The notes under the pieces: model-generated
The model's database searches: none
Told to the model about the DNA's origin: nothing
What the model saw: the letters and a program-made list of their open reading frames with translations, nothing else
Part shown: piece after piece, positions 28,243 through 55,984 of the stretch
Position numbering within the stretch: position 1 is the stretch's first letter
Layout: each line of letters opens with the position of its first letter
DNA from: Deltaproteobacteria bacterium
GTDB taxonomy: Bacteria > Myxococcota_A > UBA9160 > UBA4427
Length of the DNA stretch: 64,000 bases
Direction: 5' to 3'
NCBI GenBank assembly: GCA_002719955.1
Contig: PBFW01000016.1
Coordinates: 124,001-188,000, forward strand
Made by a program: the position numbers and the translations under genes

Positions 28243-28296
28243 TTCACTGCTCCTTACGGGTTTGGCGGGCTCGTGCGTCACTGGCGACGTCGAACG

Positions 28297-29514: not shown

Positions 29515-29619
29515 GATGAGTGACTCCGATCTGGGGGGTGGACGCTCTTATTCGTCTCGGGGGTACGACCATCGGGAGGCAGCCGGAACCGACCGGTGCT
29601 GCCTATCGAGGCAGGCTCA

Positions 29620-30804: not shown

Positions 30805-30933
30805 GGGAACCTCCGTGCCGTGGGGGGAGCGGCGCTGATCCGTGGCCTCCCCGTTTGTTTTCGATTCTCGATTTCTACGGCGAAGACTCCGATCAGTGAA
30901 GCGTCGAGAACGATCGGATCCCGGAGGGAGGAA

Positions 30934-37837: not shown

Positions 37838-38989
37838 GTGATTCGTGACAAATCTGCCATCGTCGGAATCGGCCATACGGAATACGTGCGCCGAATCGGA
37901 CGCAGCGAACGCGAGACGGCACACGAGGCCTCGCTCACAGCACTCGCCGACGCGGGACTCACCTCACGTGATGTCGACGGAATCTTCCATGTCGAGGGCC
38001 AGAGCGGCCAGGCGGCCGACCTCGCCCGCCGGCTCGGTGCACCTAACCTGCGCGCCTGGGCCGCGGCGGGCGGCGGTGGCGGCGCTGCCTGTGCTCCGGT
38101 CGTGCACGCCGCGATGGCGATCGCAACGGGAATGTGTGAAGTCGCGATCGCGTACCGCGCGCGCAATCGCGGCGCGGTCGGCGCACGGCCCTGGGCAAAG
38201 ACGAGCCACCTCGTTTCCGGGCAGGCAGCCTTCGAGAGTCCACACGGCTTCATCAACCCGGTCCACCAACAGGCGTTCATGGCGCGGCGCTACCTCTACG
38301 AATCAGGTGCGCCCCAGGAGACCTTCGCCCACATCTCGGTGGCGCAGAGACGCTACGCGAGCCGCAATCCTGTCGCGTATTTCCGGGATCTGATCACGAT
38401 CGACGACGTGCTCGGCTCGCGGATGATCGCTGACCCCCTGCACCTGCTCGAGTGCTGTCCGGAGAACGACGGTGCGTGCGCAGTCGTCGTCACGACCGCA
38501 GAGCGTGCTCGCGACTGCCCACAGATTCCGGCCTGGATCTCCGGAGTCGCTCAGGGTGTCGGCCCACGACACGTACCGATGACGAATTTCTACAACAAGG
38601 CCAACCCCTGGGACTGGCCGGGCGCCTACGCCGCACGTGACGTGTATGCCATGGCCGGCCTGGGCCCCGCCGACATCGACGTATTCCAGCTCTACGACAT
38701 GTTCGCGCCCGTCGTCGCATATGGCCTCGAGGCCTACGGCTTCTGCAAGACGCTCGAAGGCGGGCATTTCGTTGTCGACGGAAATACGGCGACCGTGAGC
38801 GCGACGATCCCGACCAATACCGCGGGGGGAAGCCTCTCCGAAGCTTATATTCACGGCTTCAACCATATCCTCGAAGGCGTCCGCCAGCTTCGGGGAACTT
38901 CCGGCAATCAGGTTCCCGGAGCGGAGGTTTCGCTGGTGGCTGCCGCCCCGGTCGTGCCCACTTCGGCGATCCTGCTGACGAGAAAGTAG
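37838..38989 (+). CDS. Thiolase-fold lipid-transfer-type protein (Ltp2/SCP2-thiolase-like)
   Basis: A 383-residue thiolase-superfamily protein starting at GTG 37838. The N-terminal AIVGIGHTEY and the C-terminal TNTAGGSLSEAYIHGFNH and YDMFAPVVAYGLEAYGF blocks place it with Ltp/SCP2-type thiolases and aldolases. In this group some proteins are thiolases, while others (Ltp2) are retro-aldolases that shorten steroid side chains and depend on a DUF35 partner. The glycine-rich GGGGGAACAP occupies the nucleophile region. The next gene is exactly such a DUF35 protein, nine bases downstream. This is the only thiolase-like gene in the window and could finish chain shortening for the CoA enzymes near the left end. 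Confidence 0.83.
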   Translation: MIRDKSAIVGIGHTEYVRRIGRSERETAHEASLTALADAGLTSRDVDGIFHVEGQSGQAADLARRLGAPNLRAWAAAGGGGGAACAPVVHAAMAIATGMCEVAIAYRARNRGAVGARPWAKTSHLVSGQAAFESPHGFINPVHQQAFMARRYLYESGAPQETFAHISVAQRRYASRNPVAYFRDLITIDDVLGSRMIADPLHLLECCPENDGACAVVVTTAERARDCPQIPAWISGVAQGVGPRHVPMTNFYNKANPWDWPGAYAARDVYAMAGLGPADIDVFQLYDMFAPVVAYGLEAYGFCKTLEGGHFVVDGNTATVSATIPTNTAGGSLSEAYIHGFNHILEGVRQLRGTSGNQVPGAEVSLVAAAPVVPTSAILLTRK

Positions 38990-39478: not shown

Positions 39479-40909
39479 TCATTCGGAGGGATGCGGCACT
39501 TTCCTGACGCGAAGTCGCTCCTGGATTTCGACCAGCTGATCCCGCGTCAGAGAATAACGGGATATTGCATAACATCCCATGAAGACAACGACGAGAACGA
39601 CAGGGCCATAGATGAACGCGAGACTTCTCAACGTCTCTTCCGGAACACCTCCCGGCACGGCGTCCGAAGGAAACTGGATCAAGTCGAGCACCAGGCCGGC
39701 GCCGAGATGACCGAGCCCCGAAGATGCCTTGCTCGAGAGAGAGATCGCCCCGAAGAACATTCCTTCTTGCCGCCGGCCGGTCGTCATTTCGTGTTCATCC
39801 GCAACGTCAGCGAGCATCGAACCGCTCGTGATCTGCGAGCCCTTGAAGAAGAGTGCCAATCCGCCGAACGCCACGATGAGTGGTAGAAAGAAGGGGCTCT
39901 CGTGCTCCGGAAACCAGCCCAGCAGATAGGCGAGTGGCGGCAGGCCCATGCAGGAGGTCCAGAGCATCAGCCCGGAGATGTAGGTGTACTTCTTGCTCAG
40001 ATAGCGGGCCACGTAGACCCACGCGAAGATGCCAGTGACGGAGCCGATGAGAACCGCCGTTCCCCAGGCGGCGATCTCGTCGGGGGCAAGCCGCCAAAAG
40101 AAGGTGAACATGTGCACGTTGAGGGCGTTCTGCGTGCCGCGCGCGACGGCGTACAAGAAGATTCCCAGGAAGAACCAACGAAAAGAGATGTTCTCGAGGC
40201 TCTCGACGACGTCGCTCAGGACATGGCCGAAGCTGAAGGTTTCCGGCGCGTGAACGGGTCGCGGCAGGTAGCGGATCCGGTCATGAGTCCCGACACCGGT
40301 CCCGATGATCGCGAGAACGATCAGGACGGCCAGCACGAGTGCGAAAGGCCCATAGGCCGCCGGATCGAACTGCCCGTTGGGAAAGGCTTCGCTCGCGCCG
40401 AAGAAGAGCCAGAAACTCAACGGGACCACGGCGGACATGGACGTGATCGAGAAGAAAGTGCGGTAGGCGACAATCGTCGTACGCTCGTCGTAGTCACTGG
40501 TGAGTTCCGCACCCAGGGCCAGATGTGGTATGACGAAAAAAGTCATCGCGACACGCACAAGGATCGAGAATCCGGTCAGCCACAGGAAGAGACCCCATTG
40601 TCCGAGACCATCCGGTGGCATGAAGACGACCACGAAAAAGAACGCCATGGGGATCGCCGACAAGTAGATGAAGGGATGGCGCCGACCGAGCCGCGAACTG
40701 TGATTGTCGGAGATGGAAGCGACCAGGGGATCGGTCACAGCGTCAGCGATCATCGCAATCAGCAGTGCCGCTCCGGACAATGTCCCCGACAGACCTAATA
40801 CCTGGACGTAGTAGAAGAAGAGAATGTACTCGAAAGCACCCGTCTTCAAGCCCTCTGCCGCCTGGCCAATGCCATATCCCAGCTTCGACCCCAATTCCAA
40901 TCTATTCAT
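39479..40909 (-). CDS. GPH/MFS-2-type membrane transporter
   Basis: A 476-residue polytopic membrane protein with about 12 predicted hydrophobic segments. Features of the glycoside-pentoside-hexuronide:cation symporter family are the N-terminal KLGYGIGQAAEG, AMIADAVTDPLVASISD in the second helix and the GRRHPFIYLSA loop. Members move sugars, but related proteins near catabolic clusters probably import other solutes, including steroids or lipids. Start 40909 has GGAGGAT upstream. It converges on the DUF35 gene and diverges from the Rieske oxygenase. It is the only obvious transporter in the window, so uptake of the pathway substrate is an attractive but unproven role. Confidence 0.87.
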   Translation of the reverse strand: MNRLELGSKLGYGIGQAAEGLKTGAFEYILFFYYVQVLGLSGTLSGAALLIAMIADAVTDPLVASISDNHSSRLGRRHPFIYLSAIPMAFFFVVVFMPPDGLGQWGLFLWLTGFSILVRVAMTFFVIPHLALGAELTSDYDERTTIVAYRTFFSITSMSAVVPLSFWLFFGASEAFPNGQFDPAAYGPFALVLAVLIVLAIIGTGVGTHDRIRYLPRPVHAPETFSFGHVLSDVVESLENISFRWFFLGIFLYAVARGTQNALNVHMFTFFWRLAPDEIAAWGTAVLIGSVTGIFAWVYVARYLSKKYTYISGLMLWTSCMGLPPLAYLLGWFPEHESPFFLPLIVAFGGLALFFKGSQITSGSMLADVADEHEMTTGRRQEGMFFGAISLSSKASSGLGHLGAGLVLDLIQFPSDAVPGGVPEETLRSLAFIYGPVVLVVVFMGCYAISRYSLTRDQLVEIQERLRVRKVPHPSE

Positions 40910-41191
40910 CGATCCTCCATTCGGGGACTACACCACGCATCCACCGCGGAGGCCACATCGAGGGCCGGGTGACTTCAGATTGGCAAATAGTCGCAGTGTC
41001 GAAACGCCTGCCCCCCCTCCGCGTGGATCTTCAGAGGTTGACTCGCGGCCACGCTCAGTGGACCCTGACTCCAAGGGAAAAGGTCGCCACGGTGCTCGAA
41101 TGGCGACCCCGAAATGCCCCGCGCACTGTCGCTCACACCCGCAGAACCAATCGTCAGCTGGCCGACTGGATGGCCTGAAAAGGGAATGGAC

Positions 41192-42583
41192 ATGAAAAGT
41201 GAAAAGGAAGTGCATCCTCACACGATCACCCGACCGGATCGGATCCCCGCCGCACGATACTACGATCGGGAATTCTACGAGCTCGAGTGCGAGCGACTGT
41301 GGCCACACGTATGGCAGATGGCTTGCCGACTGGAAGAGATCCCCGACACGGGCGACTTCGTCGAGTACGAGAACGTCGGCCAGGCGATCTTCGTCGTGCG
41401 ACAAGACGATGGTTCGGTCAAGGCCTTCCACAACAGCTGCCGCCACCGGGGGACACGCCTCGTCGAAGACCGCGGCAGCTGTCGGGACGGGATCGTCTGC
41501 CCCTTCCACGGCTGGTGTTGGGATCTGGACGGATCGAACCGTGAAGTCTATGCACCGACCCTCTTCGACATCTCCAATCTCGACCCCGTCCACCTGAAGC
41601 TTCGGGAATGCCGAGTGGAGCTGTGGGGTGGAAGCGCGTTCATCTGCATGGACGAAGATGCTCCCCCTCTTCGCGACTCGCTCGAACCCTTCGCGAGTTT
41701 TCATGAAGCGCGCGGCGTCGACCAGATGCGCACCGAATGGTGGTACTCGACCGTGCTTCCAGTGAACTGGAAACTCGCCATGGAGGCCTTCATGGAGAGC
41801 TATCACGTGGCGCAGACACATCCCCAGATGATCGCGCGCAGCAGCGGCGCGGGGGACGGCGCTCAGGATGGCCTGACAACCAGAAAGGTCGGAGAAGTGC
41901 TGACCCGCGCTGCCAGTTCCGACCAGGTGATCGAGAGTTCGCTCTATTTCATGCGCACTCTGAACAAGGGCATGTCCAGCATGGTGCACCAGAAGGATAT
42001 CCATGTAGCCGAAGGGCTGCGCGACACGAAGCTCCCCGACGATCCGACGGAGGCCTCCCAGGAGTGGAATCGCCGTCTAAACGATGCGATCACCAGTTGG
42101 AATCGGAGCTCGGGCATCGCCCTCCCGGATCAGAACGAACTGTCGGAGCGAGGTCTCATCTCGGTCGTCAACTACGGCTTCCCGAACTTCTTTCTGCTCC
42201 CCATGTACGGAAACGCCGCATCCTATCGTGTACGGCCCCTCGGCCCGGAGGAATGCCTCTTCGAAATTTGGGGCCTAACGATGTTTCCGGAGGGAGAAGC
42301 TCCCAAGAAGTCTCTGCGCACCCCCGTCCCGATGGCCCCCGATGATCCCCGCTGGCCAGATATCCCGCGCCAGGATTTCGCCAACCTCCCGCTCCAGCAG
42401 ACCGGACTGCATTCGGCGAGTTTCGAATTCATGCAATTGTCGAGCAGGATCGAGGGCATGATTTCAAACTACCAACGCTTGATCGATGGGTATATCGCTC
42501 GCCTGGGATTCGACAAACTGCTGCCCGCAGTCCAGAAGGTATCCGGCTCGATCGACGATTCGTCCAAGGATCTGGGCTTCTAG
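41192..42583 (+). CDS. Rieske non-haem iron oxygenase, alpha subunit
   Basis: A 463-residue ring-hydroxylating-type oxygenase. The [2Fe-2S] Rieske motif is Cys83-x-His85-x17-Cys103-x2-His106. The mononuclear iron site has His205 and His210 in ESYHVAQTHPQ. The residue at the bridging-Asp position of naphthalene dioxygenase reads Glu202. ATG 41192 is preferred because AGGGA lies six bases upstream; ATG 41186 overlaps that element, and the in-frame region back to 41114 has no homology. No beta subunit, ferredoxin or reductase is adjacent, so electrons must come from elsewhere. It may hydroxylate or demethylate an aromatic or alicyclic substrate imported by the neighbouring transporter. Confidence 0.88.
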   Translation: MKSEKEVHPHTITRPDRIPAARYYDREFYELECERLWPHVWQMACRLEEIPDTGDFVEYENVGQAIFVVRQDDGSVKAFHNSCRHRGTRLVEDRGSCRDGIVCPFHGWCWDLDGSNREVYAPTLFDISNLDPVHLKLRECRVELWGGSAFICMDEDAPPLRDSLEPFASFHEARGVDQMRTEWWYSTVLPVNWKLAMEAFMESYHVAQTHPQMIARSSGAGDGAQDGLTTRKVGEVLTRAASSDQVIESSLYFMRTLNKGMSSMVHQKDIHVAEGLRDTKLPDDPTEASQEWNRRLNDAITSWNRSSGIALPDQNELSERGLISVVNYGFPNFFLLPMYGNAASYRVRPLGPEECLFEIWGLTMFPEGEAPKKSLRTPVPMAPDDPRWPDIPRQDFANLPLQQTGLHSASFEFMQLSSRIEGMISNYQRLIDGYIARLGFDKLLPAVQKVSGSIDDSSKDLGF

Positions 42584-43074: not shown

Positions 43075-43899
43075 GTGACCTACGAACATATCCAGGTCGC
43101 CAAGATGACAGCACCGCTGGGTGCGGAGATCTCGGGGGTCGACCTCTCGAAACCTCTCGAGGAGCCGGTGCGGGACGAAATCGCGCGAGCGATGCTCGAT
43201 CATCTCGTCGTCTTCTTTCGCGGCCAGGACATCACGGTCGACGATCATTTCCGCTTCGCGTGCGGCTTCGGCGATCTCTACACCCATCCGATCTTCCAAC
43301 CCCTCAAAGACCAGGGGCGACCCGAGATATTCGAGCTCCAGAGCGATGCGAAGCGGCCTTTCGTAGCCGCCCTGTGGCATACGGATATCACCTTCGAGCC
43401 CGATCCCCCAAAGGCTTCCGTCTTGCGCGCAATCGAAGTCCCGGAGGCGGGTGGGGACACGATGTGGGCCAGCATGGAAGCCGCCTACGATGGCCTCTCC
43501 GACACGATGCAGCACCTGCTCTCGGGGCTTTCCGCGATCCACCAACCATCCTATTTCTATCAACTCGCCAACGACGAACAGCGCAAGCGATTCGATGACC
43601 GCGGCGACGTGATTCACCCCGTCGTCCGAACCCACCCCGTGAGCGGCCGCAAGGCGATTTTCGTGAACGGCGCCTTCACCTCACAGATCGTCGGGATGAA
43701 GGAGAAGGAAAGCGAGAAGGTCCTCGCCTTTCTCTACGAACACATCGATTCCTCCGAATTTCATTGCCGCTTCCATTGGACGAAGAACGCGATCGCGATG
43801 TGGGACAACCAGAATACACAGCACCGGGTGGTCGCCGACGACCCGACCGCCCGGCGAGTCATGCAGCGTCTCACACTGGCAGGCGACAAACCCTTCTGA
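43075..43899 (+). CDS. TauD/TfdA-family 2-oxoglutarate dioxygenase
   Basis: A 274-residue Fe(II)/2-oxoglutarate-dependent dioxygenase. Metal ligands are His102 and Asp104 in LWHTDITF and His250 in NTQHRVV; Arg residues near 261-265 (RRVMQR) bind 2-oxoglutarate. The family hydroxylates sulfonates, phenoxyacetates and other small acids, leading to their cleavage. It begins at GTG 43075 after AGAGGAGA. A SnoaL-like gene follows 43 bases later, then a glyoxalase-fold gene. The second TauD in the window (62415) is also near a SnoaL-like gene. Substrate unknown. Confidence 0.88.
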   Translation: MTYEHIQVAKMTAPLGAEISGVDLSKPLEEPVRDEIARAMLDHLVVFFRGQDITVDDHFRFACGFGDLYTHPIFQPLKDQGRPEIFELQSDAKRPFVAALWHTDITFEPDPPKASVLRAIEVPEAGGDTMWASMEAAYDGLSDTMQHLLSGLSAIHQPSYFYQLANDEQRKRFDDRGDVIHPVVRTHPVSGRKAIFVNGAFTSQIVGMKEKESEKVLAFLYEHIDSSEFHCRFHWTKNAIAMWDNQNTQHRVVADDPTARRVMQRLTLAGDKPF

Positions 43900-43942: not shown

Positions 43943-44344
43943 ATGGCTCGAACGGCAGCAGAACTCGCATTCGAACGGCACGTGGCGGCGATCCATTCGG
44001 GCAACCGCGAGGCATTCCTCTCGAATTTTGCAGAGGATGCCATCGTGGAAGACCCGGTCGGTCCCTCCCCCCTCGACCCCTCTGGACAAGGGCACCACGG
44101 CCGTACCGCGATCGCCGCGTTCTGGGACAAGGTGATCGGCCCGGGCGCGGTCCGTTTCGAAATCGACCGCGCCTACGCTTGCGGCAACGAAATCGCCAAC
44201 GTCGGGACGATCTACAACGAATTGCCGGATACGGTGGGCGAGATCGCCGCCCACGGCGTCTTCGTCTATCGCGTGAACCTCGAGGGAAAGCTCGTTTCCC
44301 TCAAGGCCTATTGGGACTACGAAACGACGATGTCGGGTGGCTGA
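43943..44344 (+). CDS. SnoaL-like/ketosteroid-isomerase-fold protein
   Basis: A 133-residue cone-shaped alpha+beta protein. The N-terminal helix pair (LAFERHVAAIHSGNREAFLS) is followed by FAEDAIVEDPVG, where the Asp is in the pocket position used by delta-5-3-ketosteroid isomerase-like proteins, and the C-terminus ends in KLVSLKAYWDYE. Such proteins isomerise double bonds, cyclise or dehydrate. ATG 43943 has GGGAGA upstream. It is co-oriented with the TauD-like gene 43 bases upstream and likely co-transcribed. Whether it is a true isomerase cannot be told from sequence alone. Confidence 0.83.
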   Translation: MARTAAELAFERHVAAIHSGNREAFLSNFAEDAIVEDPVGPSPLDPSGQGHHGRTAIAAFWDKVIGPGAVRFEIDRAYACGNEIANVGTIYNELPDTVGEIAAHGVFVYRVNLEGKLVSLKAYWDYETTMSGG

Positions 44345-44459
44345 CACCCAGGACTCCCGGACCTCGATTTCGTCTCGTGATCAGGTCTGTGTTCGCGCGT
44401 TTCATCGCGAGCCCCGATCGACTCCAGAATGAACACGCCCCGCCATGGAGAGGACAGCG

Positions 44460-44918
44460 ATGAACAGCATCGACGCGATTTCCCATATTGCCGTCGGCGT
44501 GACCGATATGGATCGATCCCTCGCCTTCTATTGCGATGTACTCGGCCTCCACGTCTCGCTCGACACGGAGGAGGAGTTGCCCGCCTTCGGAGGCGGTGAT
44601 TCCCAGAAGCGCCGCGCCTGCTACCTGCGCTGGCGCGAGGGCGCGCACGAAACCTTCATCGTCCTCGATCAACAGCTCTCCCGAGCACCTTTCGGCGAAT
44701 GTCCGACCCTCTTTCAGGTGGGCACCCACCACTGGGGCTTCTGGGTCGAGAACATCGATGGCATCGTCGAGCGGGCGGAGGCCGCGGGCGTTCCGATCAT
44801 CGCCCGGCCGGGGGATGCCGACACCCTCCTCTACGGAGAACCGAGCGGCGGCACCTGCCGAAGCGCCTTCCTGCGCGATCCCGACGGAAATGTCGTCCAA
44901 CTCGACCAGCGCGGCTGA
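44460..44918 (+). CDS. VOC-superfamily (glyoxalase/bleomycin-resistance fold) protein
   Basis: A 152-residue vicinal-oxygen-chelate protein with two beta-alpha-beta-beta-beta units. The first begins ISHIAVGVTDMDRSLAFY with a potential metal His, the second contains HHWGFWVENIDG, and the end reads FLRDPDGNVVQL, the standard C-terminal signature with its metal-binding region. Functions range from dioxygenases to isomerases and resistance proteins. I chose ATG 44460 because GGAGAGGA sits five bases upstream; ATG 44445 lies in front of that element. It probably shares a transcript with the SnoaL and TauD genes. Confidence 0.85.
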   Translation: MNSIDAISHIAVGVTDMDRSLAFYCDVLGLHVSLDTEEELPAFGGGDSQKRRACYLRWREGAHETFIVLDQQLSRAPFGECPTLFQVGTHHWGFWVENIDGIVERAEAAGVPIIARPGDADTLLYGEPSGGTCRSAFLRDPDGNVVQLDQRG

Positions 44919-44957: not shown

Positions 44958-45737
44958 TCAGACGGTGACCGCACCCGCGCTGAGATGAATCGTCTGCCCG
45001 GTGATCTGGCGACTTCCCGGAAGGCAGAGATAGAGGATCGCGTCGGCGACATCCCCGGGCAGGGAGGCGCGCTGCAGCAAGTTGGCCAGCGGGCCCTCTT
45101 CGACCATCGCCTGAAAGGCGGCCGCATCCCCGATCCCCTTCGTCATCGGGGTGATCGTCACGCCCGGGGCGACGGCGTTCACGTTGATGTCGTGCCGGCC
45201 GAGGTCGGCAGCAGCGGTCCGGGTGAGCTGGGCCAACCCCGCCTTCGCAGCGCCGTAGGGGGCGACGGACATCCGCGCACGGTGGGCCGAACTCGAAGTC
45301 ACATTGACGATCCGCCCACCCCCACCGCGCTCGACCATATGCCGCCCGACCTCCTGGATCAGCCGAAAGGGTGCCTTCAGGTTGATCCTCTGCACCCGGT
45401 CCCAATTCTCTTCCGACTGTTCGAGGATCTCTCCTGTCTCACCGGAGATCCCCGCGGCGTTCACGAGGAGATCGATGCGTCCATGGGCGGAGAGCACCTC
45501 GGCGACGACATCGGGAATCCCATCGATCTCGTGCAGATCGGTGACGTGCGCGCTGGCGCGCCCCCCCGCCTGCTCGACGTCAGCCACGACCCGTTTCGCG
45601 CCCTCGTGGTCGCGATCGAGCACGGCGACCGTGGCCCCCACGGCCGCAATCCGTCCGGCCGCGGCCTCGCCGATGCCCGACGCGCCGCCGGTGATCAGCG
45701 CCACCTGTCCAGAGAGCGGGAGTTCGTTCGTCGGCAT
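44958..45737 (-). CDS. Short-chain dehydrogenase/reductase
   Basis: A 259-residue classical SDR. The NAD(P) motif is TGGASGIG, VNAAG is in place, and the active-site Ser-Tyr-Lys lies in TSSSAHR and APYGAAK. An acidic residue after strand two (VLDRDHEG) favours NAD over NADP. The C-terminal IHLSAGA segment is typical. GAGGA lies upstream of start 45737, and the conserved N-terminus begins with LPLSGQVALITGG; the longer in-frame extension lies inside the next gene. It follows the P450 at 45781 on the same strand after 43 bases, so it likely oxidises the P450 product. Confidence 0.87.
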   Translation of the reverse strand: MPTNELPLSGQVALITGGASGIGEAAAGRIAAVGATVAVLDRDHEGAKRVVADVEQAGGRASAHVTDLHEIDGIPDVVAEVLSAHGRIDLLVNAAGISGETGEILEQSEENWDRVQRINLKAPFRLIQEVGRHMVERGGGGRIVNVTSSSAHRARMSVAPYGAAKAGLAQLTRTAAADLGRHDINVNAVAPGVTITPMTKGIGDAAAFQAMVEEGPLANLLQRASLPGDVADAILYLCLPGSRQITGQTIHLSAGAVTV

Positions 45738-45780
45738 AGCATGTTTCCTCGATGCAGCGGGGTTGAGCTTCGCAGCCGTC

Positions 45781-47055
45781 CTAGAATCGCAATGGAAGCG
45801 TGTCCAGGCCGCGCAGGAAGAGACTGTCGCGATAGGCGTGCGGAGCGTCCCCGTCGAGTCTGAGATCGGGAAGCCTACGCAGGATGGTTTCGAGGGCGGT
45901 GCGAATCTCGAGCCGGGCCAGAGAGGCACCGAGACAGGTATGCCGGCCGAGCCCGAAACTCAGATGGGCATTAGGTGTTCGGGCGATCTCGAGGCGATCG
46001 GGGTCGGCGAACATCGCGGGATCGCGATTGGCCGCACCGTTGAAGAGCACGCAGACCTCCCCCGCGCCGATCGTCGTGTCGCCGAGCTGGAAGGGTTCAT
46101 CGGAAACGCGCTGACTGATCTGGACCGAGGTGTCGAAGCGTAACAGTTCCTCGACGGCGGTCGGAATCGCTTCGGGTGTCTGGCGGAGGAACTCGAGTTG
46201 CTCGGGCCGTTGGAGGAGCGCCAAAATACCCATCCCCAGCAGATCCTGGGTCGTCCCGTGCCCCGCTTGCAGCAGGATATAGCAGCCGCCGACGAGATCT
46301 TCGTCGGAGAGACCGACCCCCTCCTCGTCCCGGGTGTCGATCAGGGCGGTCATCAGGTCGAAACGCGGCGCTCGCCGGTGGTCCTCGATGAGCTTCATGA
46401 AATAGTCCGCATAACCGAGAGTCGCCCGTTCACCGCGGCTTACGATCTCGTCGGTGATCCCGCCGATCTCGGCCCGACGGCTCGAGTCCTGTGCCCAATC
46501 GTAGAATTGCGGCAAATCGTCGGGGGGCACTCCGAGCATCTCGCAGATCACGGCCATCGGCAGTCGAAAGGCAAAATCGTGGACGAAATCCATCCGGCCG
46601 AGGGGGGCGAGACGATCGATCAACTCGTCGACGACTGTCTGAACGCGCTCCTGGCGAAGTTCGACCGCACGCGGTGTGAAGGCCCGCGAGATCAACTCGC
46701 GTACGTGGTCGTGCTTGCGGGGCGATAGAAAGAGCAGCGTGTTGCGCTGCATGTCGACGAAGTGGTGCCCCTCGGGCCCGACGTCGAAGAGATCGGCGCC
46801 GCGCTCATCGCTGCGCACGTCCGGGCGCCTAAGCACATCGCGGATCTCCGCGTAGCGAGTCAGAACCCAGGCGGGTCTTCCGGTCGCCTGGTCCGTGTGG
46901 AGGATCGGCGCGACCTCGCGCAGCCGATGCAGATAGGGGTGGAGTGTTCCCCGACGCTTGGGATCGAGAATCAACGCGAGGATCTCGTGCGGGTCCTCGA
47001 GATCCGCGGCGATCGCCGTGTCACGCGCTCTGTCGGCCTCGCTCATTTCTGTCAT
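45781..47055 (-). CDS. Cytochrome P450 with Gly at the I-helix acid position
   Basis: A 424-residue P450. The haem loop is canonical, FGLGRHTCLG with Cys374, and ExxR is EELLR around 302-306. The I-helix reads A264-G-H-G-T-T269: Thr is kept but the acid is Gly267. The N-terminus (DPHEILALILDPKRRG) and the C-terminus (YRDSLFLRGL) match the P450 at 12936, defining a shared subfamily; the two differ in which motif is altered. Start 47055 is supported by CGGAGA 12 bases upstream; ATG 47046 is an alternative. It is co-oriented with an SDR and diverges from the D-aminoacylase-like gene at 47225. Confidence 0.88.
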   Translation of the reverse strand: MTEMSEADRARDTAIAADLEDPHEILALILDPKRRGTLHPYLHRLREVAPILHTDQATGRPAWVLTRYAEIRDVLRRPDVRSDERGADLFDVGPEGHHFVDMQRNTLLFLSPRKHDHVRELISRAFTPRAVELRQERVQTVVDELIDRLAPLGRMDFVHDFAFRLPMAVICEMLGVPPDDLPQFYDWAQDSSRRAEIGGITDEIVSRGERATLGYADYFMKLIEDHRRAPRFDLMTALIDTRDEEGVGLSDEDLVGGCYILLQAGHGTTQDLLGMGILALLQRPEQLEFLRQTPEAIPTAVEELLRFDTSVQISQRVSDEPFQLGDTTIGAGEVCVLFNGAANRDPAMFADPDRLEIARTPNAHLSFGLGRHTCLGASLARLEIRTALETILRRLPDLRLDGDAPHAYRDSLFLRGLDTLPLRF

Positions 47056-47224
47056 TTCGGGAAAAATCTCCGAATCGGATCGATCTCCATCTTCTCCGAT
47101 CCCCGTCGACCGGTCAACCGCTGGCTCCCGAGCGCCCTCCCCTTGCAGCCGACGCTGCCGCACCCTCCTCCCCATCGGGATATGCTCGATCGGGGTATGC
47201 TCTCGGAGACGAAGGAGCGCCAGC

Positions 47225-49012
47225 ATGTTCGACACTCTGATCCGCGGTGGAATGCTAGTCGACGGCTGCGGTACCCCACCACGCCGTGCCGATATCGCCC
47301 TGCTCGATGGTCGCATCGCGGCGATCGGCTCGATCTCCGGCGCGGCCCGAGAGACGCTCGATGTCGAGGGCCGCTTCGTAGCGCCCGGCTTCATCGACGT
47401 CCATACTCACTACGACGCGCAAGCTTTTTGGGACCCGACCCTCTCGCCCTCGCTCTACCACGGCGTCACGACTGTCGTGGCAGGAAATTGCGGCTTCAGC
47501 ATCGCGCCGCTCAGCCCAGACGCCGGCGACTACTTGATGCGCATGTTGGCAAGGGTCGAGGGGATGCCGCTAGAGAGCCTGCGCGATGGCGTGCCCTGGG
47601 ATTGGACCAGCTTCGGCGATTACCTGGCGCGCCTCGACGGCACACTCGCGATCAACGCCGGTTTCATGGTGGGCCACTCGGCGCTGCGGCGCGTAGTCAT
47701 GGGCGAACGCGCCGTCGGTCACGAGGCGAAGGCCGGAGAGCTCGACGCGATGAATGCGCTGTTGCGGGCCTCGCTCGCGGAGGGGGGGCTCGGATTCTCG
47801 TCGACGCGGTCGGCCGCGCATAATGACGCGATGGGCCAACCCGTCCCGTCGCGACACGCAAGCCTCGACGAGCTCTACAGTCTTTGCCGAACCACGCGGG
47901 ACGCCCCGGGCACGGCGCTCGAGATGCTGCCAGGAACGACGACATTTTCTGACGAGGACAAGGAAATCCTTACCCAGATGTCGCTCTCCGCCAATCGACC
48001 TCTCAATTGGAATCTGATGGCGCCGCGCGCGGACATGCCAGAAGTCATGGAGAACCAGCTGAGCGCTTCGGATTATGCCGCTGAGCGAGGGGCCGTCGTG
48101 CTGGCCTTGACGGTGCCCCAGGAATTGAGTGGGCGCGTGAATCTGCTCTCGGGATTCGCCTTCGATGCGTTGCCACGCTGGGCCGAGGTGATCGGCCAGC
48201 CCCTCGACGCTCGCAAGAAGGCCCTCGCCGACCCGGGGATTCGCGAACAATTGCGTCTCGGCGGGGAGGAACAGGGCCCCGGACCGCTCAAGGGTCTCAC
48301 GCGATGGGCGGAGATTCGTGTCGAGGAGACCTTCGAACCAGAGAATGAAAAATGGCGCGGCGCCACGATCGGTGAGATCGCGAGCGCTCGCGATGTCGCC
48401 CCCCTCGATGCGCTGCTCGACCTCTCCCTCTCGGAGGGGTTGAGAACCTCCTTTGCATCGCCCACCGGCGGGCAGACGGATCCCGAGAGCTGGCGGATGC
48501 GCGCCGACTCCTGGACCGACCCACGCACCATCGTCGGTGCCTCCGATGCCGGCGCCCACCTGGACATGATGGACACTTTTGCATTCACGACCCAACTGCT
48601 CGGCCGCGGCGTACGGGAAATGGGACTGATCAGCCTCGAGGAAGCCGTCCGGCAATTATCCGAGGTCCCAGCGCGGCTCTACGGCTTGCGCGAACGTGGT
48701 CGGGTCGAGGAGGGATGGCACGCGGACCTCGTCGTCTTCGACCTCGAGCGGGTCGCGAAGGGTCCCACCTATACCCGCTTCGATCTACCCGCCGGCGCGC
48801 CCCGCCTCTACGCCGATGCCGAGGGAATCGATCACGTCTTCGTGAACGGCCAGGAGATCGTCCGCAGCGGCGAGGAAACGGGGAGGCGCCCGGGTACCGT
48901 GTTGCGGTCGGGGCGAGATACAAAAACCGTCGAAGTACCAGGCGGGTCCGCGTCCAACGAATCTCAACACGAGAATCTGCCATCCCCGGACACGAAGAGG
49001 CCCCGGCTCTAA
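47225..49012 (+). CDS. D-aminoacylase-like amidohydrolase
   Basis: A 595-residue paralogue of the protein at 18904. The metal motif HTHYD starts at His60, Cys89 is in GNCG, and VGASDAGAHLD provides the catalytic Asp; numbering is identical over the first 90 residues. The C-terminus is about 20 residues longer and rich in Ser, Glu and Pro. ATG 47225 has AAGGAG eight bases upstream; a longer frame to 46958 runs across the divergent P450 gene and has no homology. It is followed by a P450 after 23 bases and an amidohydrolase further on, which repeats the gene content of the 16-20.6 kb region. The family hydrolyses N-acyl amide bonds. Confidence 0.88.
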   Translation: MFDTLIRGGMLVDGCGTPPRRADIALLDGRIAAIGSISGAARETLDVEGRFVAPGFIDVHTHYDAQAFWDPTLSPSLYHGVTTVVAGNCGFSIAPLSPDAGDYLMRMLARVEGMPLESLRDGVPWDWTSFGDYLARLDGTLAINAGFMVGHSALRRVVMGERAVGHEAKAGELDAMNALLRASLAEGGLGFSSTRSAAHNDAMGQPVPSRHASLDELYSLCRTTRDAPGTALEMLPGTTTFSDEDKEILTQMSLSANRPLNWNLMAPRADMPEVMENQLSASDYAAERGAVVLALTVPQELSGRVNLLSGFAFDALPRWAEVIGQPLDARKKALADPGIREQLRLGGEEQGPGPLKGLTRWAEIRVEETFEPENEKWRGATIGEIASARDVAPLDALLDLSLSEGLRTSFASPTGGQTDPESWRMRADSWTDPRTIVGASDAGAHLDMMDTFAFTTQLLGRGVREMGLISLEEAVRQLSEVPARLYGLRERGRVEEGWHADLVVFDLERVAKGPTYTRFDLPAGAPRLYADAEGIDHVFVNGQEIVRSGEETGRRPGTVLRSGRDTKTVEVPGGSASNESQHENLPSPDTKRPRL

Positions 49013-49035
49013 CCAATGAGGAATAGGAGCAAGAA

Positions 49036-50190
49036 ATGGATTTTGATCCCCAGGCACTGAGTGCCGTCGACGATCCCTACCCGGTCTTCGACGAGCTGCG
49101 CGAAAATCATCCCGTCTTCCACAGCGCCGGACGAGATCTCTGGGTGGTCTCTCGCTACGAAGACGTACGCGCCATGTTGTTGGACGCGGAGACCTATGCG
49201 TCAGGCATGGGAACGGTGCCAACGGGGTTCGTGTCGCACAAGCCGATGTTGATCACCCAGGACGCGCCCTATCACACGCATCTGCGCGACGCCGTGCACA
49301 AAGCCTTCGCGCCGAGCCGGATGCGCGCCCTGAACGGCTTCATCCGATCGACGACCCAGTCGCTCCTCGACGCCATCGACCCCGAGGCCGAGACCGATCT
49401 CTTCGGGACACTGACGGATCCCCTCCCGGTCGCGGTCGTCACTGAAATCCTCGGCATCGGCTTCGAGGACCGCAAAGAATTCAGCAGCTATGCCGGGGCC
49501 GTGATTCACGCCGTGGAGGGACAGTCCCCGACCGCAGAAGAGGGCATGCTCTGGATCTACGCATATCTCGAGAAGATGCTGCCGGATCGAGAAGCAGAGC
49601 CAGGAAACGATCTCGTGAGCGAGCTCCTTCACCCGGCCCCCGGTGTGCCCCAGCTCGACCACGATGAAGTCGTCGGATTCTGCTCCCTGCTCCTGATGGC
49701 GGGCACGGAGACCACGACCAACGGTCTCGGCAATGCGGTGGCCCTACTGGAAAGGCACCCTGAGCTACGTCGCCGACTCGTGAAGGAGCCCAAGGCGATC
49801 CCCGGGGCCATCGAGGAGTTCCTGCGCCTCGAATCGCCCGTCCCCGGTCTGTCCCGCGTCACGACGCGAGACGTGGAGCTACAGGGGCAGGCGATCCCGA
49901 AGGGGTCGCGCGTGCACATGGCCTTCGCGGCGGCCAACCGCGATGAGCGCGCTTTTCCAGATGCCCAACTCCTCGACCCGAGCCGCAGCCCCAACCCCCA
50001 CCTCGCCTTCAGCCTGGGTGTCCACTTCTGTCTGGGGGCACGGCTGGCGCGTACCGAAATGCGGATCGTACTCGAGGAGCTGCTCGCGCGTTTCCCGGAA
50101 TACGAGGTGATTCCCGAACGCTGGGTGCGGCTGCAATCTGATGCGGCGCGGGGATTTTCCTTTCTTCCCTTTATTGGCCGACCGGGATAG
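49036..50190 (+). CDS. Cytochrome P450
   Basis: A 384-residue P450 with intact catalytic motifs: I-helix A-G-T-E-T-T (222-227), ExxR EFLR (261-264) and haem loop FSLGVHFCLG with Cys332 (Ser instead of the usual Gly at position two). SPVPGLSRVTTRDVEL closely resembles the P450 at 11405. AGGAGCAAGAA precedes ATG 49036. It lies 23 bases after the D-aminoacylase-like gene and 32 bases before an amidohydrolase, so the three are one operon. It is the smallest of the six P450s. No redox partner is encoded nearby. Confidence 0.9.
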   Translation: MDFDPQALSAVDDPYPVFDELRENHPVFHSAGRDLWVVSRYEDVRAMLLDAETYASGMGTVPTGFVSHKPMLITQDAPYHTHLRDAVHKAFAPSRMRALNGFIRSTTQSLLDAIDPEAETDLFGTLTDPLPVAVVTEILGIGFEDRKEFSSYAGAVIHAVEGQSPTAEEGMLWIYAYLEKMLPDREAEPGNDLVSELLHPAPGVPQLDHDEVVGFCSLLLMAGTETTTNGLGNAVALLERHPELRRRLVKEPKAIPGAIEEFLRLESPVPGLSRVTTRDVELQGQAIPKGSRVHMAFAAANRDERAFPDAQLLDPSRSPNPHLAFSLGVHFCLGARLARTEMRIVLEELLARFPEYEVIPERWVRLQSDAARGFSFLPFIGRPG

Positions 50191-50222
50191 AGTCGAAATA
50201 CACGATCAAAAGGAGGTCTGTC

Positions 50223-51332
50223 ATGGCTCCCAGAATCATCTCCGGAGACTCCCACGTCGCCGAACCCGAGGAGGCGTACAGGGAGATCGATCCCGCCTTC
50301 CGGGATCGCGCGCCCTATCTGGTCAACGATCCGGAGACGGGGGCGGGCATGCGCGTCGACGGGCTGGATGCGCCCGTGCCCATGGCCTTCATCCTGGCCG
50401 CCGGCCGAAAGCCCGAGGAGATCGGGACACCGGCTGCCTGGGAGACGCTGAATCCCGCTGGCTACGACCCGAAAGCCCGCATCGGTATCCAGGAGGAAGA
50501 GGGGATCGATGCGGAGGTGATCTTCCCGAGCGTCGGCATGATCCTCTGCCGCGTGAAGGACATCGACTATCGCAAGGCCTGTAACGATGCCTACAACCGT
50601 TGGCTCCAGGGTTTCTGCGAGCATTCCCCGGATCGACTCCTCGGGCTGGCCACGGTCACCCTGCGCACCATCGAGGAGGGGATCGAGGAATTGCGCGAAG
50701 CCAAGAGGATGGGCTTCATCGGTGTCATGTTGGCGGGTGATCCCAATGTCGAGGATTACGACCATCCCTGCTACGACCCCTTCTGGGAAGCCTGCGCGGA
50801 TCTCGGGCTCCCCGTCCATTTCCACATCCTCACCTCGGAAGCAGACGACCTCTCCACCATGATCGTGCGCAAGACGCGCGGCCCGAAGATCGCGCAATTC
50901 ATGTCGATCATCCGCGGTGTGCAGGACATCATGTTGATGCTGGTCTTTAGCGGTGTCTTCGAACGGCATCCGGGACTGAAAGTCGTGTGCGCCGAGGCCG
51001 ACGCGGGCTGGGTCCCGCATTTCTTGTACCGGATGGACCACGCCTACAAGCGACATCGGTATTGGCTCGAGGTCGCGTCCCTCTCGAAGCCACCGAGCGA
51101 GTATTTCGCGGGGAATATCTACGTCACATTTCAAGACGACTACGTGGCCACCCACATGACGCATCTCAATCCGACGAATCGGCTGTTATGGGCGAGCGAT
51201 TTCCCACATAACGATGGCACCTATCCAAATACGAAACAGGTCATCGCGAAGCTGACGGACGGGATGAGCGACCTCGATCGCGGCAGGATCATCGGCGGCA
51301 ACGTCGAGGAACTCTACGGGCTCTCATCCTGA
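50223..51332 (+). CDS. Amidohydrolase-2 family protein
   Basis: A 369-residue TIM-barrel amidohydrolase, closest in the window to the one at 17772. The motifs are SGDSHVAEP, HFHILTSEAD, EADAGWVPHF and WASDFPHNDGTYP. AAAGGAGG eleven bases before ATG 50223 is an excellent ribosome binding site. Both members of this pair sit beside a D-aminoacylase-like gene and near P450s, implying a conserved functional unit. Differences between the pair are concentrated in residues 40-75 and 215-235, likely at the substrate entrance. The reaction (hydrolysis or decarboxylation) cannot be decided. Confidence 0.88.
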   Translation: MAPRIISGDSHVAEPEEAYREIDPAFRDRAPYLVNDPETGAGMRVDGLDAPVPMAFILAAGRKPEEIGTPAAWETLNPAGYDPKARIGIQEEEGIDAEVIFPSVGMILCRVKDIDYRKACNDAYNRWLQGFCEHSPDRLLGLATVTLRTIEEGIEELREAKRMGFIGVMLAGDPNVEDYDHPCYDPFWEACADLGLPVHFHILTSEADDLSTMIVRKTRGPKIAQFMSIIRGVQDIMLMLVFSGVFERHPGLKVVCAEADAGWVPHFLYRMDHAYKRHRYWLEVASLSKPPSEYFAGNIYVTFQDDYVATHMTHLNPTNRLLWASDFPHNDGTYPNTKQVIAKLTDGMSDLDRGRIIGGNVEELYGLSS

Positions 51333-51350: not shown

Positions 51351-52007
51351 TCATCGACTGGGATCCCCGCCGACCATCGCGCTGATCTCGCGCCCAGCAC
51401 CAGCCTCCGAGGGTGGGCCGGGGAGGCGAGGGGCGCTGTCGTGACGAGGTTCGTAGTGGATCAGGAAATCACCTTTGCCGCGGCCCTGGTCGAAGCTGCT
51501 CCCGTCGAGAAAGAATCGCGTCCTTGCTCTGGCTTCCTCGTTCGAGAATCCCTCGTATTCGATCCTGTAGATGGCGGAATAGATGACGGCGCGACCGTAG
51601 CCGTGAAAGCAGTGGATCAACACCGGATAGGAAGCGCTGTCATCCATCACCTCGAAGAACCTCTCTAGGTTCTCTTCGGTCGGGACCTGACCGGATGGAA
51701 TGTTGATATGCCTGACACCGGCAAGCTCCTCGATCGCCTGCCTCTCCAGATCGATCCCATCGCGCTCACCGGACTCCAGGCTTCCCTCGTCCTGGGGCTC
51801 GCGGAGATCGACGACGGTCCTGATACCGTAGCGATCGACAAAGCGGGCGATCTCTTCCGGCGGCATTCTCCCGGATTTGTAGACGGTGTCCCTGGAGATG
51901 ACCTCGAAACGATAGTTGAAGAACACGTACCAGACATGGAAGAGTCCGAGAAGAATGATGATCGACAGAAGAATCGATCGCGCGCATCTCCTTCTGTGAA
52001 GATTCAT
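51351..52007 (-). CDS. Membrane-anchored dual-specificity/tyrosine phosphatase-like protein
   Basis: A 218-residue protein with an N-terminal transmembrane helix (about 11-31, SILLSIIILLGLFHVWYVFF) and an extracytoplasmic or periplasm-facing phosphatase domain. The phosphatase loop is Cys133-F-H-G-Y-G-Arg139 after LIHC, matching C-x5-R. VVDLREPQDEG is the typical general region of DSP-like phosphatases. It is out of place among catabolic enzymes. Start ATG 52007 has GAGG eight bases upstream; a GTG at 52016 would add three residues. It converges on the amidohydrolase. Substrate (phosphoprotein, lipid phosphate or polysaccharide-linked) is unknown. Confidence 0.82.
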   Translation of the reverse strand: MNLHRRRCARSILLSIIILLGLFHVWYVFFNYRFEVISRDTVYKSGRMPPEEIARFVDRYGIRTVVDLREPQDEGSLESGERDGIDLERQAIEELAGVRHINIPSGQVPTEENLERFFEVMDDSASYPVLIHCFHGYGRAVIYSAIYRIEYEGFSNEEARARTRFFLDGSSFDQGRGKGDFLIHYEPRHDSAPRLPGPPSEAGAGREISAMVGGDPSR

Positions 52008-52254
52008 CCGATCCACCTCAGAGCGCGAAGTCGCGATCCGCGAATCCCTCCGAACTCACGGGAACGCGCCAGATCCGCGCACCGATCCCCGCACCTCGTC
52101 CCAATCGACCCGGCCGGGGAAAGTCGACGGCTCGGAGGCTAGCATCCGATCACCCCGGCATACGCTTCGCCGAGGGATGAGGGGGGAGAATCGATCGAGC
52201 CGGGTAGACTCCCCCCTCGTTCACGACTTGCCGCGCCCATGGGGAGAAAACGAG

Positions 52255-52681: not shown

Positions 52682-53473
52682 TCAGAGGGGTGCAACGGGC
52701 ACCGACATCGCCGGCGCTTCGGCCCCCCCGTCCACCTGAAAGACCTTGCCCGTGACCCAACCCGCCGCGGGCGACGCCAGAAAGAGCGCGCAGGCAGCGA
52801 TATCTTCCACCGTGCCCGGCCGATGCATCGGGGTATTTTCCTCGAATTGTGCGCGCAGCGCGTCGTTGGTGAGCACCACTTCGAGAGCATCGGTCGCGAT
52901 GCCGCCGACCCCGATGGCATTGACGCGAATCCTGGGGGCGATCTCTGCCGCCAGATTGCGCGTCATCATATTGAGCGCCGCCTTGCCCGCGCCGTAGGCC
53001 ACGAAGGAGGTCTGCACCATATCCCCGGAGCGAGACGAGATATTGACGATCGCGCCCTCACCCGCCGTTTCGACCATATGCGGGATACACAACTTCGAGA
53101 GCAGGAACGCCTGGGTCACGTTCATTCTCAGCGCTCGCTCGAAATATCCTTCACTGGTTTCGAGGGCCGCTCTCGGACCCGTGCCGCCCGCATTGTTGAC
53201 AAGAACGTCCAGACGACCAAATTCGGCGAGTGTCGCTTCGACCAGCGCCTCGAGATCCTCGGTCTCAGTCACGTCCGTCCGGACGGCGAGCGCACGACGT
53301 CCACGAGCCTCGACTTGCTTGACGGTGTCCTCGAGGTCTTCCTGAGTGCGTGCGGCGCAAACGATCTCAGCACCGGCTTCGGCAAAGGCGAGGGCGATCC
53401 CGCGGCCGATCCCCTTGCCGGCCCCGGTTACAATGGCGACCTTGTCCGTTAGTCTGAACCGGTCGAGAATCAT
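52682..53473 (-). CDS. Short-chain dehydrogenase/reductase
   Basis: A 263-residue classical SDR. The cofactor motif TGAGKGIG, NNAGG, and the catalytic SSRSG and YGAGK segments are present; the C-terminus reads FQVDGGAEAPA, typical of 7-alpha-hydroxysteroid-dehydrogenase-like and fatty-acid-type members. CAARTQ after strand two favours NADP. The stop of the upstream molybdopterin oxidoreductase gene lies 28 bases ahead of its start, so they are probably in one transcript. It likely reduces or oxidises a hydroxyl/keto group of the pathway intermediate. Confidence 0.87.
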   Translation of the reverse strand: MILDRFRLTDKVAIVTGAGKGIGRGIALAFAEAGAEIVCAARTQEDLEDTVKQVEARGRRALAVRTDVTETEDLEALVEATLAEFGRLDVLVNNAGGTGPRAALETSEGYFERALRMNVTQAFLLSKLCIPHMVETAGEGAIVNISSRSGDMVQTSFVAYGAGKAALNMMTRNLAAEIAPRIRVNAIGVGGIATDALEVVLTNDALRAQFEENTPMHRPGTVEDIAACALFLASPAAGWVTGKVFQVDGGAEAPAMSVPVAPL

Positions 53474-53501: not shown

Positions 53502-55715
53502 TCAAAGGGTCACGCGAACGGGAATCGAACTCAGGCGCGGAAGGCCGGTATAGGGCTCCTCGTAGTCGAGATCGGCGCTCGCGAGCGCACCCGTGTGATT
53601 GCCCATTGAAAAGGGCTGGGGCTCGCCCGGGTCGGAGCCGGTGGCCAATCTCTCGAGATCGATTCCATAGCTATGACTCATCGAGACGAGACCGCGGCGC
53701 AGATCTTCCGACTCCATCACCACTGCATGGACCGTATCTCGACGAGAGGTAATGGCCACGATCGCGCCCGGCGCGATGCCGATATCCTGCATGTCGGCCG
53801 GATGCATATGTGCGGGATGATGCGGCCGAGCGCGCACCAGCTTCGGTTGGTCTCGCCCCAGTGAGTTCAACGTATTCTCCTGACGCCGACAGATGAGGCG
53901 GAACGGAAATTCGTCGTCGCCCTCGAGCGAGCCGCTTTCCAGGGCTTCATCGAGTTGCGCCAACATCACTTCGTCGCCGAGTTCGAGAAAACCCTGGCTG
54001 TCGGGATCCCGCGCGAGCACCTGAGCGTTCGGATCCTCGTAGACCTGACCGGCATGATGTCTGCGGACCTCGGAAAGGGGAATCCGAGAGCCTTCCGTCA
54101 GCACGTCGAAGAGTTCATCGGTGGTCGGCGTATTCTGCATGTCGAGGGCCACCCGGCGTGCCGGCGGATCCCCCGGAGTGCGAATCGCTCCCACGTAGAG
54201 CTGCAGATCGAGCTCCATTTCGCGCGCCAGGAGATAAAAGAGTTCCCAATCCTCGAGCAGTTCGGAACCGTCGGGCGGATCAACGAGCGCCTCACGATAG
54301 GCTGCGTAGGGCAAGGCATAACCCCAGCCCGGTGCATGGCTCTCCAACTCTTCGAAATCGTAGGAGAGCGCCGGGATCTCCGGGACGAGCTTGGGCGGCA
54401 TGACGTAGTCCGCGAATTGACCGGTCTGGGTCTGCTTGGGATCCAACACCACGAGCAGGTCGAGACGCTCGAGCGCGGCTCGGGTCTTGGCCTGATCCGG
54501 CCACGACATCAGCGGGTTGCCCCCCAGGCAGATGAGCGCGCGAATCTGGCCCTCTCCCTCGAGCAGGATCTCGTCCGCCAGCGCGGAAGTCGGCAACCCG
54601 CATGCGGTATTCGAGAGGCCGCGCGTGCGAAGCTTCGGCGGGAACCCCCACGCTGGGGTCGGCGCCAGGGGCTGGGCGCGCCGCGGTCCACGGGGCACGA
54701 GCACACCGGGGTTCGGATCGAGATCCCCCTCGCGAGCCCGGAAACCACAGAGCGTCACGAGGCAGGCCAGCAGATATTCGGTGAGGGTGCCACGCGAGGA
54801 AAAATTCGCGCCGGTCCCCGCATTGGCGCCACCGGTTACCGAGGAGGCGAAGACGCGCGTCGCCTCGAGCAGGTCGGTCGCCGGAACGTCCGCCCTCCGC
54901 TCGACGAATTCCGGGGTAAAGGACTCGACGTGCTGACGCAGCACCTCGAGATTGCGCGTGTTCTCGTCGACGAAGTTCTTGTCGAAGAGTCCTTCCTCGA
55001 GAACGATCCGAACCATGCCCGCCAGCACGGCGGCATCCTCGCCGGGCACGGGCTGGAGATGGAGCAACGCCTTCTTCGCCGTCTCGCTTCGGCGCGGGTC
55101 GATGACGATGAGCTTGATTCCGCGCTTCAGGGCGCGATTGAGATGCCAGGCCGGGTTGAGGGTCGGAATCCCGCCCAGTCCCGACACCAGGGGATTCGTA
55201 CCCACGAAGAGCCACGTCTCCGCCGTCGCAAATGGCTGCCCTCCACCCTGCCATTGCCCGTGGAGGGCCCGCGCAAGGAATTTGCCCGGCTGATCGATCG
55301 AACCACAACTGAACGACATCGGGGAGCCCAGCGCGTTCATGAAGGCACCCGCCAGCAGGCTGGCCGGCGGAGCGAGCGCATAGGTCCCGGTGTAGAGCGC
55401 GACGGAGGCGGGCCCGTGCTCGTCCACCAGGACACGAAGTCGATCCGCGATCTCAGAGATCGCCGTCTCGGGGGAGGTCGACTCGAAATCACCGCTCGGC
55501 GCCTTGCGAAGCGGGCGCAGGAGACGATTCGGACCATAGAGCTGCGTCGTAACGTCTCGTCCCCGCGCGCAGGTATAGCCGTGGGACGCGGGATCGTCCT
55601 TGTCTCCGATCAGACCGACGACCCGTCCGTCCTCGATCTCCATGAAGACACCACAGGAAATCATGCAATTGCGACACACCGCGCGTGTCCGAATCTTGTT
55701 CGTCGAATCCGTCAT
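53502..55715 (-). CDS. Molybdopterin-dependent oxidoreductase (DMSO-reductase family)
   Basis: A 737-residue member of the complex iron-sulfur molybdoenzyme superfamily. A [4Fe-4S] cluster motif Cys14-x2-Cys17-x3-Cys21-x27-Cys49 is at the N-terminus. SCGSIDQPGK (136-145) contains Cys137, a candidate molybdenum ligand. ICLGGNPLMSWPD, FADYVMPP and the C-terminal RPHHPAHMHPADM match the pterin-binding domains. There is no Tat signal, so a cytoplasmic location is likely. The usual electron-transfer and membrane subunits are not adjacent, which is unusual. Start 55715 is used because MTDSTNKIRT precedes the cluster motif. Substrates of similar soluble members include formate and hydroxylated or unsaturated compounds; unresolved here. 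Confidence 0.86.
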   Translation of the reverse strand: MTDSTNKIRTRAVCRNCMISCGVFMEIEDGRVVGLIGDKDDPASHGYTCARGRDVTTQLYGPNRLLRPLRKAPSGDFESTSPETAISEIADRLRVLVDEHGPASVALYTGTYALAPPASLLAGAFMNALGSPMSFSCGSIDQPGKFLARALHGQWQGGGQPFATAETWLFVGTNPLVSGLGGIPTLNPAWHLNRALKRGIKLIVIDPRRSETAKKALLHLQPVPGEDAAVLAGMVRIVLEEGLFDKNFVDENTRNLEVLRQHVESFTPEFVERRADVPATDLLEATRVFASSVTGGANAGTGANFSSRGTLTEYLLACLVTLCGFRAREGDLDPNPGVLVPRGPRRAQPLAPTPAWGFPPKLRTRGLSNTACGLPTSALADEILLEGEGQIRALICLGGNPLMSWPDQAKTRAALERLDLLVVLDPKQTQTGQFADYVMPPKLVPEIPALSYDFEELESHAPGWGYALPYAAYREALVDPPDGSELLEDWELFYLLAREMELDLQLYVGAIRTPGDPPARRVALDMQNTPTTDELFDVLTEGSRIPLSEVRRHHAGQVYEDPNAQVLARDPDSQGFLELGDEVMLAQLDEALESGSLEGDDEFPFRLICRRQENTLNSLGRDQPKLVRARPHHPAHMHPADMQDIGIAPGAIVAITSRRDTVHAVVMESEDLRRGLVSMSHSYGIDLERLATGSDPGEPQPFSMGNHTGALASADLDYEEPYTGLPRLSSIPVRVTL

Positions 55716-55984
55716 CGTGCTGCTCCACACGGACCCGGCGGGCGGGCCGTCTCGTCATCTGGGTCCGGGCAGAAATCTACCTGTTTGGGTTCGAGTTGGG
55801 TACGCCGCTCGCCCCTGGGAAAGCGGGGGCTACCCCCTCTGAAAGCTATCTCCAGAGATCCCATCCGGCCTTCTCGCCGGCGCATTCTCAGGGGATCCCG
55901 GCGGATTCGAAACTTTCGGAATTCTGCTCGAGCGCCCCGGAAGGAATCGAGATTCCGCGACAGGCGCTCGATCTCTCCGCGGGC

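Follow-up and report, generated by a model that had tools for sequence, protein, structure and literature searches.

Predicted dinuclear oxygenases of the amidohydrolase superfamily encoded among cytochromes P450 in a probable Myxococcota genome

Amidohydrolase-related dinuclear oxygenases (AROs) have been described from PtmU3, which belongs to diterpenoid biosynthesis in Streptomyces platensis, AibH2 and SfbO (PMC7782822, PMC10401708, PMC10811679), and a small Rieske ferredoxin adjoins 90% of the AibH2-like genes (PMC10401708). The enzyme class is young, with few characterised members, and because genomes annotate AROs as amidohydrolases, the pathways that contain them are misread. Here we analyse a window of 64,000 nucleotides (positions 124001-188000 of contig C16) in the genome assembly of what is most likely an uncultured Myxococcota-like bacterium (5.85 Mb in 77 contigs, 94% complete, 8.6% contaminated). 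In this window, two clusters, A and B, bring together genes for cytochromes P450, Amidohydro_2 proteins and D-aminoacylase-like Amidohydro_3 (AH3) proteins. The original prediction treated the two clusters as duplicates of one functional unit coupling oxidation to amide-type hydrolysis. The worthwhile finding is instead that ARO-type proteins abound, unrecognised, in this genome, together with a conserved ten-gene cluster in which an ARO gene lies behind a P450 gene. We assign a probability of roughly 0.6 to the joint reading that the Amidohydro_2 proteins of the window are ARO-type dinuclear oxygenases built on a TIM barrel and closest to PtmU3, and that clusters A and B, rather than being copies of a single module, belong to one large catabolic island on contig C16.

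Metal ligands and fold of the Amidohydro_2 proteins

All seven Amidohydro_2 proteins of the window contain the six ARO metal ligands (D, H, H, E, D and H in the alignment). In ARO_B, a predicted dinuclear (Fe2 or Mn/Fe) oxygenase encoded at 50223-51332 on the plus strand (Pfam PF04909), these are D9, H11, H201, E258, D326 and H329, with D331 in the second sphere; all six columns are identical in PtmU3, the best sequence match in PDB (5.8e-49). The position equivalent to D342 of AibH2 and E313 of PtmU3 is acidic in four of the seven proteins, and is occupied by Asp in both ARO_B and its cluster A counterpart, ARO_A (17772-18893, plus strand; Pfam and ligand alignment). The AF2 model of ARO_B (pLDDT 90) retrieves PtmU3 as the top Foldseek match (TM 0.84/0.87); the VIA-align comparison covers the ARO model, and the fold check covers ARO_B only. 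No adjacent small Rieske ferredoxin was detected among the scanned open reading frames of the window, a scan that took in part of the small frames. The amide-type hydrolysis originally proposed is, on the Amidohydro_2 side, not supported by these residues, which are the ligands of an ARO dinuclear oxygenase site, and ARO_A and ARO_B are predicted to be hydroxylases rather than amidases.

The same proteins could, alternatively, be mononuclear hydrolases or decarboxylases, similar to ACMSD or dihydroxybenzoate decarboxylase, that act on ring-cleavage products of the neighbouring oxygenases. We consider this unlikely given the N-terminal DxH motif (ACMSD has HxH), Glu as the fourth ligand and the acidic seventh residue in ARO_A and ARO_B; furthermore, PtmU3 is far closer in sequence, and PtmU3 and DitZ are closer in structure, than the mononuclear enzymes.

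Profile and paralog searches across the 5.85 Mb assembly yielded 82 Amidohydro_2 matches, 75 P450 matches and 22 AH3 genes. The PF04909 tally consists of 83 listed matches minus one under the cut-off, and includes some short pieces at contig ends; the P450 tally is 85 minus nine pieces of already counted genes and one weak match (23.9 bits); and the AH3 tally derives from 27 by merging two pieces of one gene and removing four weak matches. The ARO ligands are present in 56 of the 82 Amidohydro_2 matches, a count based on the seven window proteins and on the 63 of 75 fetched loci that were matched by a seven-sequence profile (12 loci were unmatched). Inspection of 14 odd or unmatched loci revealed an HxH motif in six and neither motif clearly in the other eight. 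On contig C73 (86528-88636), two Amidohydro_2 matches follow one another, listed either as one frame of 793 aa or as frames of 401 and 391 aa, a neighbouring pair comparable to the AibH1-AibH2 heterodimer.

The 56 genes with ARO ligands, some of which are clustered with genes for P450s, coenzyme A (CoA) enzymes and a transporter, indicate where natural substrates of this class can be sought. Searches of one literature library found no paper on ARO-type enzymes together with P450s or on such an expansion or combination, none on D-aminoacylase with P450 or terpene clusters, and none on Myxococcota with amidohydrolase and P450.

Altered metal site of the Amidohydro_3 proteins

AH3_B (47225-49012, plus strand; 595 aa; Pfam Amidohydro_3) is modelled with the D-aminoacylase fold, its AF2 model (pLDDT 91) having PDB entry 1m7j at Foldseek rank 1 (TM 0.64/0.79). 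In an alignment of 131 AH3 rows (two from the window, 22 from its own genome, 84 named and 23 from relatives; two rows are copies), H60, H62, C89, E112, D441 and H445 are invariant, the invariance of H60 and H62 being partly selected for, as the named loci were retrieved with patterns containing HTH. Alignment with 1m7j shows that AH3_B keeps HxH, Cys and Asp among the metal residues. One His, for which chain 1v4y has Ala, aligns with M234, and the first or second His of the SHHK stretch aligns with L264 or M265; we take these two positions of 1m7j to be His220 and His250, which coordinate the tightly bound catalytic zinc. None of the 131 rows has His in the corresponding columns, although 15 rows have a His elsewhere in the first short stretch and 16 in the second. 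H199 is present in 120 of the 131 rows and H151, which is also found in D-aminoacylase, in 122; either of these might serve as another ligand.

Thus, two of the three catalytic-zinc ligands of D-aminoacylase are lacking, and the proposal of amide-type hydrolysis finds no backing on the Amidohydro_3 side either. Because these two His are not kept, the AH3 proteins should not be named D-aminoacylases, and labels of this kind are unsafe on this Amidohydro_3 subfamily. For another PF07969 enzyme, a preprint reports loss of activity upon Ala substitution of any of the six metal-site residues, the two beta-site His included (PMC13081902).

Relationship and conservation of clusters A and B

In cluster B, P450_B1 (45781-47055, minus strand; Pfam) is divergent from AH3_B, which is followed by P450_B2 (49036-50190, plus strand; Pfam p450, 1.2e-34), with a heme-Cys motif in its translation, directly before ARO_B. 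The gaps between AH3_B, P450_B2 and ARO_B are 23 and 32 bp, and the cluster is operon-like. In cluster A, P450_A (16158-17393, minus strand; Pfam p450) is divergent from ARO_A, and AH3_A, a D-aminoacylase-fold protein (18904-20634, plus strand; Pfam and alignment with AH3_B), starts 10 bp after ARO_A. The adjacency of the genes originally named at 45781-51332 and 16158-20634 was confirmed, with re-bounded coordinates; the earlier description of cluster A omitted a third Amidohydro_2 gene (20817-21995, plus strand; Pfam and ligand alignment) that encodes the six ARO ligands and, at the seventh position, Glu, as in PtmU3.

The pairwise relationships reported for the two clusters hold. Across 575 residues, AH3_A shares 58% identity with AH3_B, with a gapless run of about 290 aligned columns, longer than the 90 residues claimed, and ARO_A and ARO_B are mutually closest in the window (54.5% identity, versus 33% or less to the other five Amidohydro_2 proteins). 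Genome-wide, ARO_B has a paralog on contig C8 that matches it about as well as ARO_A does (54% versus 55%), and the closest paralog of AH3_B in its own genome is encoded on contig C72 (59%, versus 58% for AH3_A). P450_A is 28% identical to P450_B1 and 33% identical to P450_B2, and the closest relative of P450_B1 among the compared window P450s is encoded at 12936-14198 (48.5%); the short-chain dehydrogenases (SDRs) beside these two related P450s fall below the 35% listing cut-off in mutual similarity. The gene order differs as well: P450 on the minus strand followed by ARO and AH3 on the plus strand in cluster A, versus P450 on the minus strand followed by AH3, P450 and ARO on the plus strand in cluster B.

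FastTree phylogenies were constructed for 64 AH3 and 89 Amidohydro_2 sequences. In the Amidohydro_2 tree, ARO_B pairs with a gene of one sister species, G001 (support 1.0), and the partner of ARO_A comes from another, G008 (0.993); in the AH3 tree, AH3_A joins the AH3_B clade with a support of 0.71. The copies are therefore old paralogs with separate histories. Recent duplication of a module was rejected on the strength of P450 divergence, gene order and tree pairing.

Whether P450, AH3 and Amidohydro_2 genes co-occur beyond chance depends on the null model. Compared with uniform gene density, AH3 genes are in excess beside Amidohydro_2 genes, with 8 of the 22 located within 2 kb (binomial tail 0.0005). 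Because P450s show a like excess (33 of 75 within 5 kb of Amidohydro_2), this null was replaced by label shuffling, in which the three family labels were permuted 5000 times over 179 positions. Both partners lie within 5 kb of 6 of the 22 AH3 genes in the window's own genome, compared with a shuffled mean of 4.97 (P=0.38), and Amidohydro_2 alone near 10, compared with 9.26 expected. As the shuffled mean approximates the observed number, co-occurrence in this genome is explained by clustering of three expanded families, and an excess of the trio over such clustering was rejected; the co-occurrence exceeds chance under the even-spread null and not under the label shuffle.

Outside this genome, a GTDB genome scan with patterns containing HTH found 421 relatives of the AH3 alignment, of which the best 80 were used, and neighbours were counted at profile matches of at least 60 bits, some loci having short flanks; a 46-bit P450 match within 5 kb in one locus (L038) was left out. 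In 20 of these loci the identity is 44% or higher; of these, one has a P450 gene within 5 kb, six have an Amidohydro_2 gene and one has both; the respective numbers for the other 60 are five, seven and one. The closest AH3_B homologue among the best 80 (L028, 73%) has neither P450 nor Amidohydro_2 in its 16 kb locus, and among ten loci around other ARO_B relatives, some of them short, one (L268, from genome G012 of another genus) has AH3 directly beside ARO. The conserved co-occurrence of a P450 with both hydrolases within 5 kb that had been suggested is not supported, with both partners in 1 of 20 close homologue loci, and conserved synteny of the three families was rejected as rare in loci outside. 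Three AH3 relatives (L032, L056 and L077) come from metagenome-assembled genomes titled Bifidobacterium breve, Klebsiella pneumoniae and Bordetella parapertussis, titles that look like mislabelled bins.

Cluster B itself is conserved in one congener. In a search of 40 genomes, own genome included, the nearest relatives of AH3_B were found in two congeners, G001 (87%) and G008 (77%), and AH3_A had no relative above 59%. A G001 locus (contig C81, L139) is collinear with cluster B over ten genes, from the transporter through ARO_B, and its contig ends just past ARO_B. The order is MFS transporter (39479-40909 in the window, minus strand; Pfam MFS_2), Rieske oxygenase alpha subunit (41114-42583, plus; Pfam Rieske and Ring_hydroxyl_A), TauD-family dioxygenase (43075-43899, plus; Pfam), SnoaL-like protein (43943-44344, plus; Pfam SnoaL_2), glyoxalase-superfamily protein (44445-44918, plus; Pfam), an SDR adjoining P450_B1 (44958-45929, minus; Pfam adh_short_C2; an open frame with the true start inside), P450, AH3, P450 and ARO. 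The ratio of nonsynonymous to synonymous substitution rates (dN/dS) of the ten gene pairs is 0.07-0.19, with the lowest value for ARO_B; cluster B is under purifying selection in this congener. The 13 kb fetched from G008 contain no Amidohydro_2 gene, and the P450 encoded there is just 32% like a window P450. The proposed functional unit thus survives as a real and collinear cluster B, and fails as a trio, which is at the shuffle expectation.

These data also bear on whether the genes of clusters A and B share no pathway and are neighbours only because three hugely expanded families are packed in islands. The copy numbers (82, 75 and 22 in 5.85 Mb), the label shuffle and the L028 locus speak for mere proximity, but the operon-like spacing of cluster B and its collinearity over ten genes in G001 render this explanation improbable. 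Less credible still is a duplicated module in which a P450 oxidises and two amidohydrolases cut an N-acyl or cyclic amide. True paralog pairs, retention of cluster B in one congener and the proximity of the AH3 model to D-aminoacylases fit such a module; against it are P450s of different families, the unlike gene order, a trio at the label-shuffle expectation and rare outside, the ARO ligands of the Amidohydro_2 proteins, the missing counterparts of H220 and H250 and the sensitivity of the PF07969 enzyme to metal-site substitutions.

Between and beside the clusters, four tandem Amidohydro_2 genes (starting at 27061, 28297, 29620 and 30934; 27061-32139, minus strand; Pfam and ligand alignment) each encode the six ARO ligands, with an acidic seventh residue in the 28297 gene only. 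The products of 27061-28281 and 29620-30804 are 67% identical, closer than ARO_A and ARO_B, and both have Gly at the seventh position. A tandem pair of CaiB-type CoA-transferases (24538-26996) is located beside a TetR regulator and FMO. Downstream of ARO_B are a DSP-PTPase-like protein (51351-52016) and a molybdopterin oxidoreductase of 742 aa (53502-55730) with an adjoining SDR (52682-53473).

A thiolase-like protein (37838-38989, plus strand; Pfam Thiolase_C_1) has homologues of 39-40% identity in six loci of the genus (L143, L147, L150, L152, L153 and L154), each close to AH3 genes of the C72 type and their relatives. A Rieske oxygenase is encoded in four of these loci (L147, L150, L152 and L153) and in L148, and FMO in L152 and L153. 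In this genus, the AH3/thiolase-like context looks more conserved than the P450/AH3/ARO context.

Predicted pathway and comparison with known systems

The best reading of the gene content is that P450s and AROs would provide oxygenation in the catabolism of CoA-activated, perhaps terpenoid-like compounds. The MFS transporter would take up the substrate, which the P450s and the Rieske and TauD enzymes would oxidise; after activation as a CoA thioester, it might undergo ARO-catalysed hydroxylation. With its altered metal site, the D-aminoacylase-fold protein could then carry out hydrolytic or C-C bond cleavage, and the SDR, acyl-CoA dehydrogenases and thiolase-like proteins would complete the degradation. 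By analogy with PtmU3, the likeliest substrate class is polycyclic terpenoid or steroid-like. Apart from what the families are called and the fold shared with D-aminoacylase, nothing in this analysis points to an amide substrate, and amide hydrolysis is most likely wrong as a function. More speculatively, and with considerable doubt, catabolism in this genus might be built on dozens of dinuclear oxygenases and P450s acting on CoA-linked polycyclic substrates, with the 22-copy AH3 family re-tooled as a non-amidase, for example, a C-C bond hydrolase opening oxygenase-prepared rings.

Compared with D-aminoacylase (1m7j) and N-acyl-D-glutamate deacylase (3gip), AH3_B has a like fold and shares HxH, Cys and Asp, but lacks H220 and H250, has the extra conserved E112 and H199, and is about 80-110 residues longer. 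Among the AROs, AibH2 and SfbO have the six ligands (DxH, H, E, DxxH) in common with the window proteins, and the AibH1H2 and SfbO chains share about 20-21% identity with ARO_B. The second nearest solved sequence to the AROs, and the top match by VIA Z, is that of DitZ from Rhodococcus rhodochrous (PDB 8uyr; about 20% identity), on which our literature search found no paper. The nearest solved sequence to both ARO_A and ARO_B is PtmU3 (PDB 6omp), which is alike in fold, in the six dinuclear ligands and in the acidic residue 313; unlike PtmU3, to which it is about 32% identical, ARO_B has P450 genes and a D-aminoacylase-like gene as neighbours, in what looks like a catabolic island.
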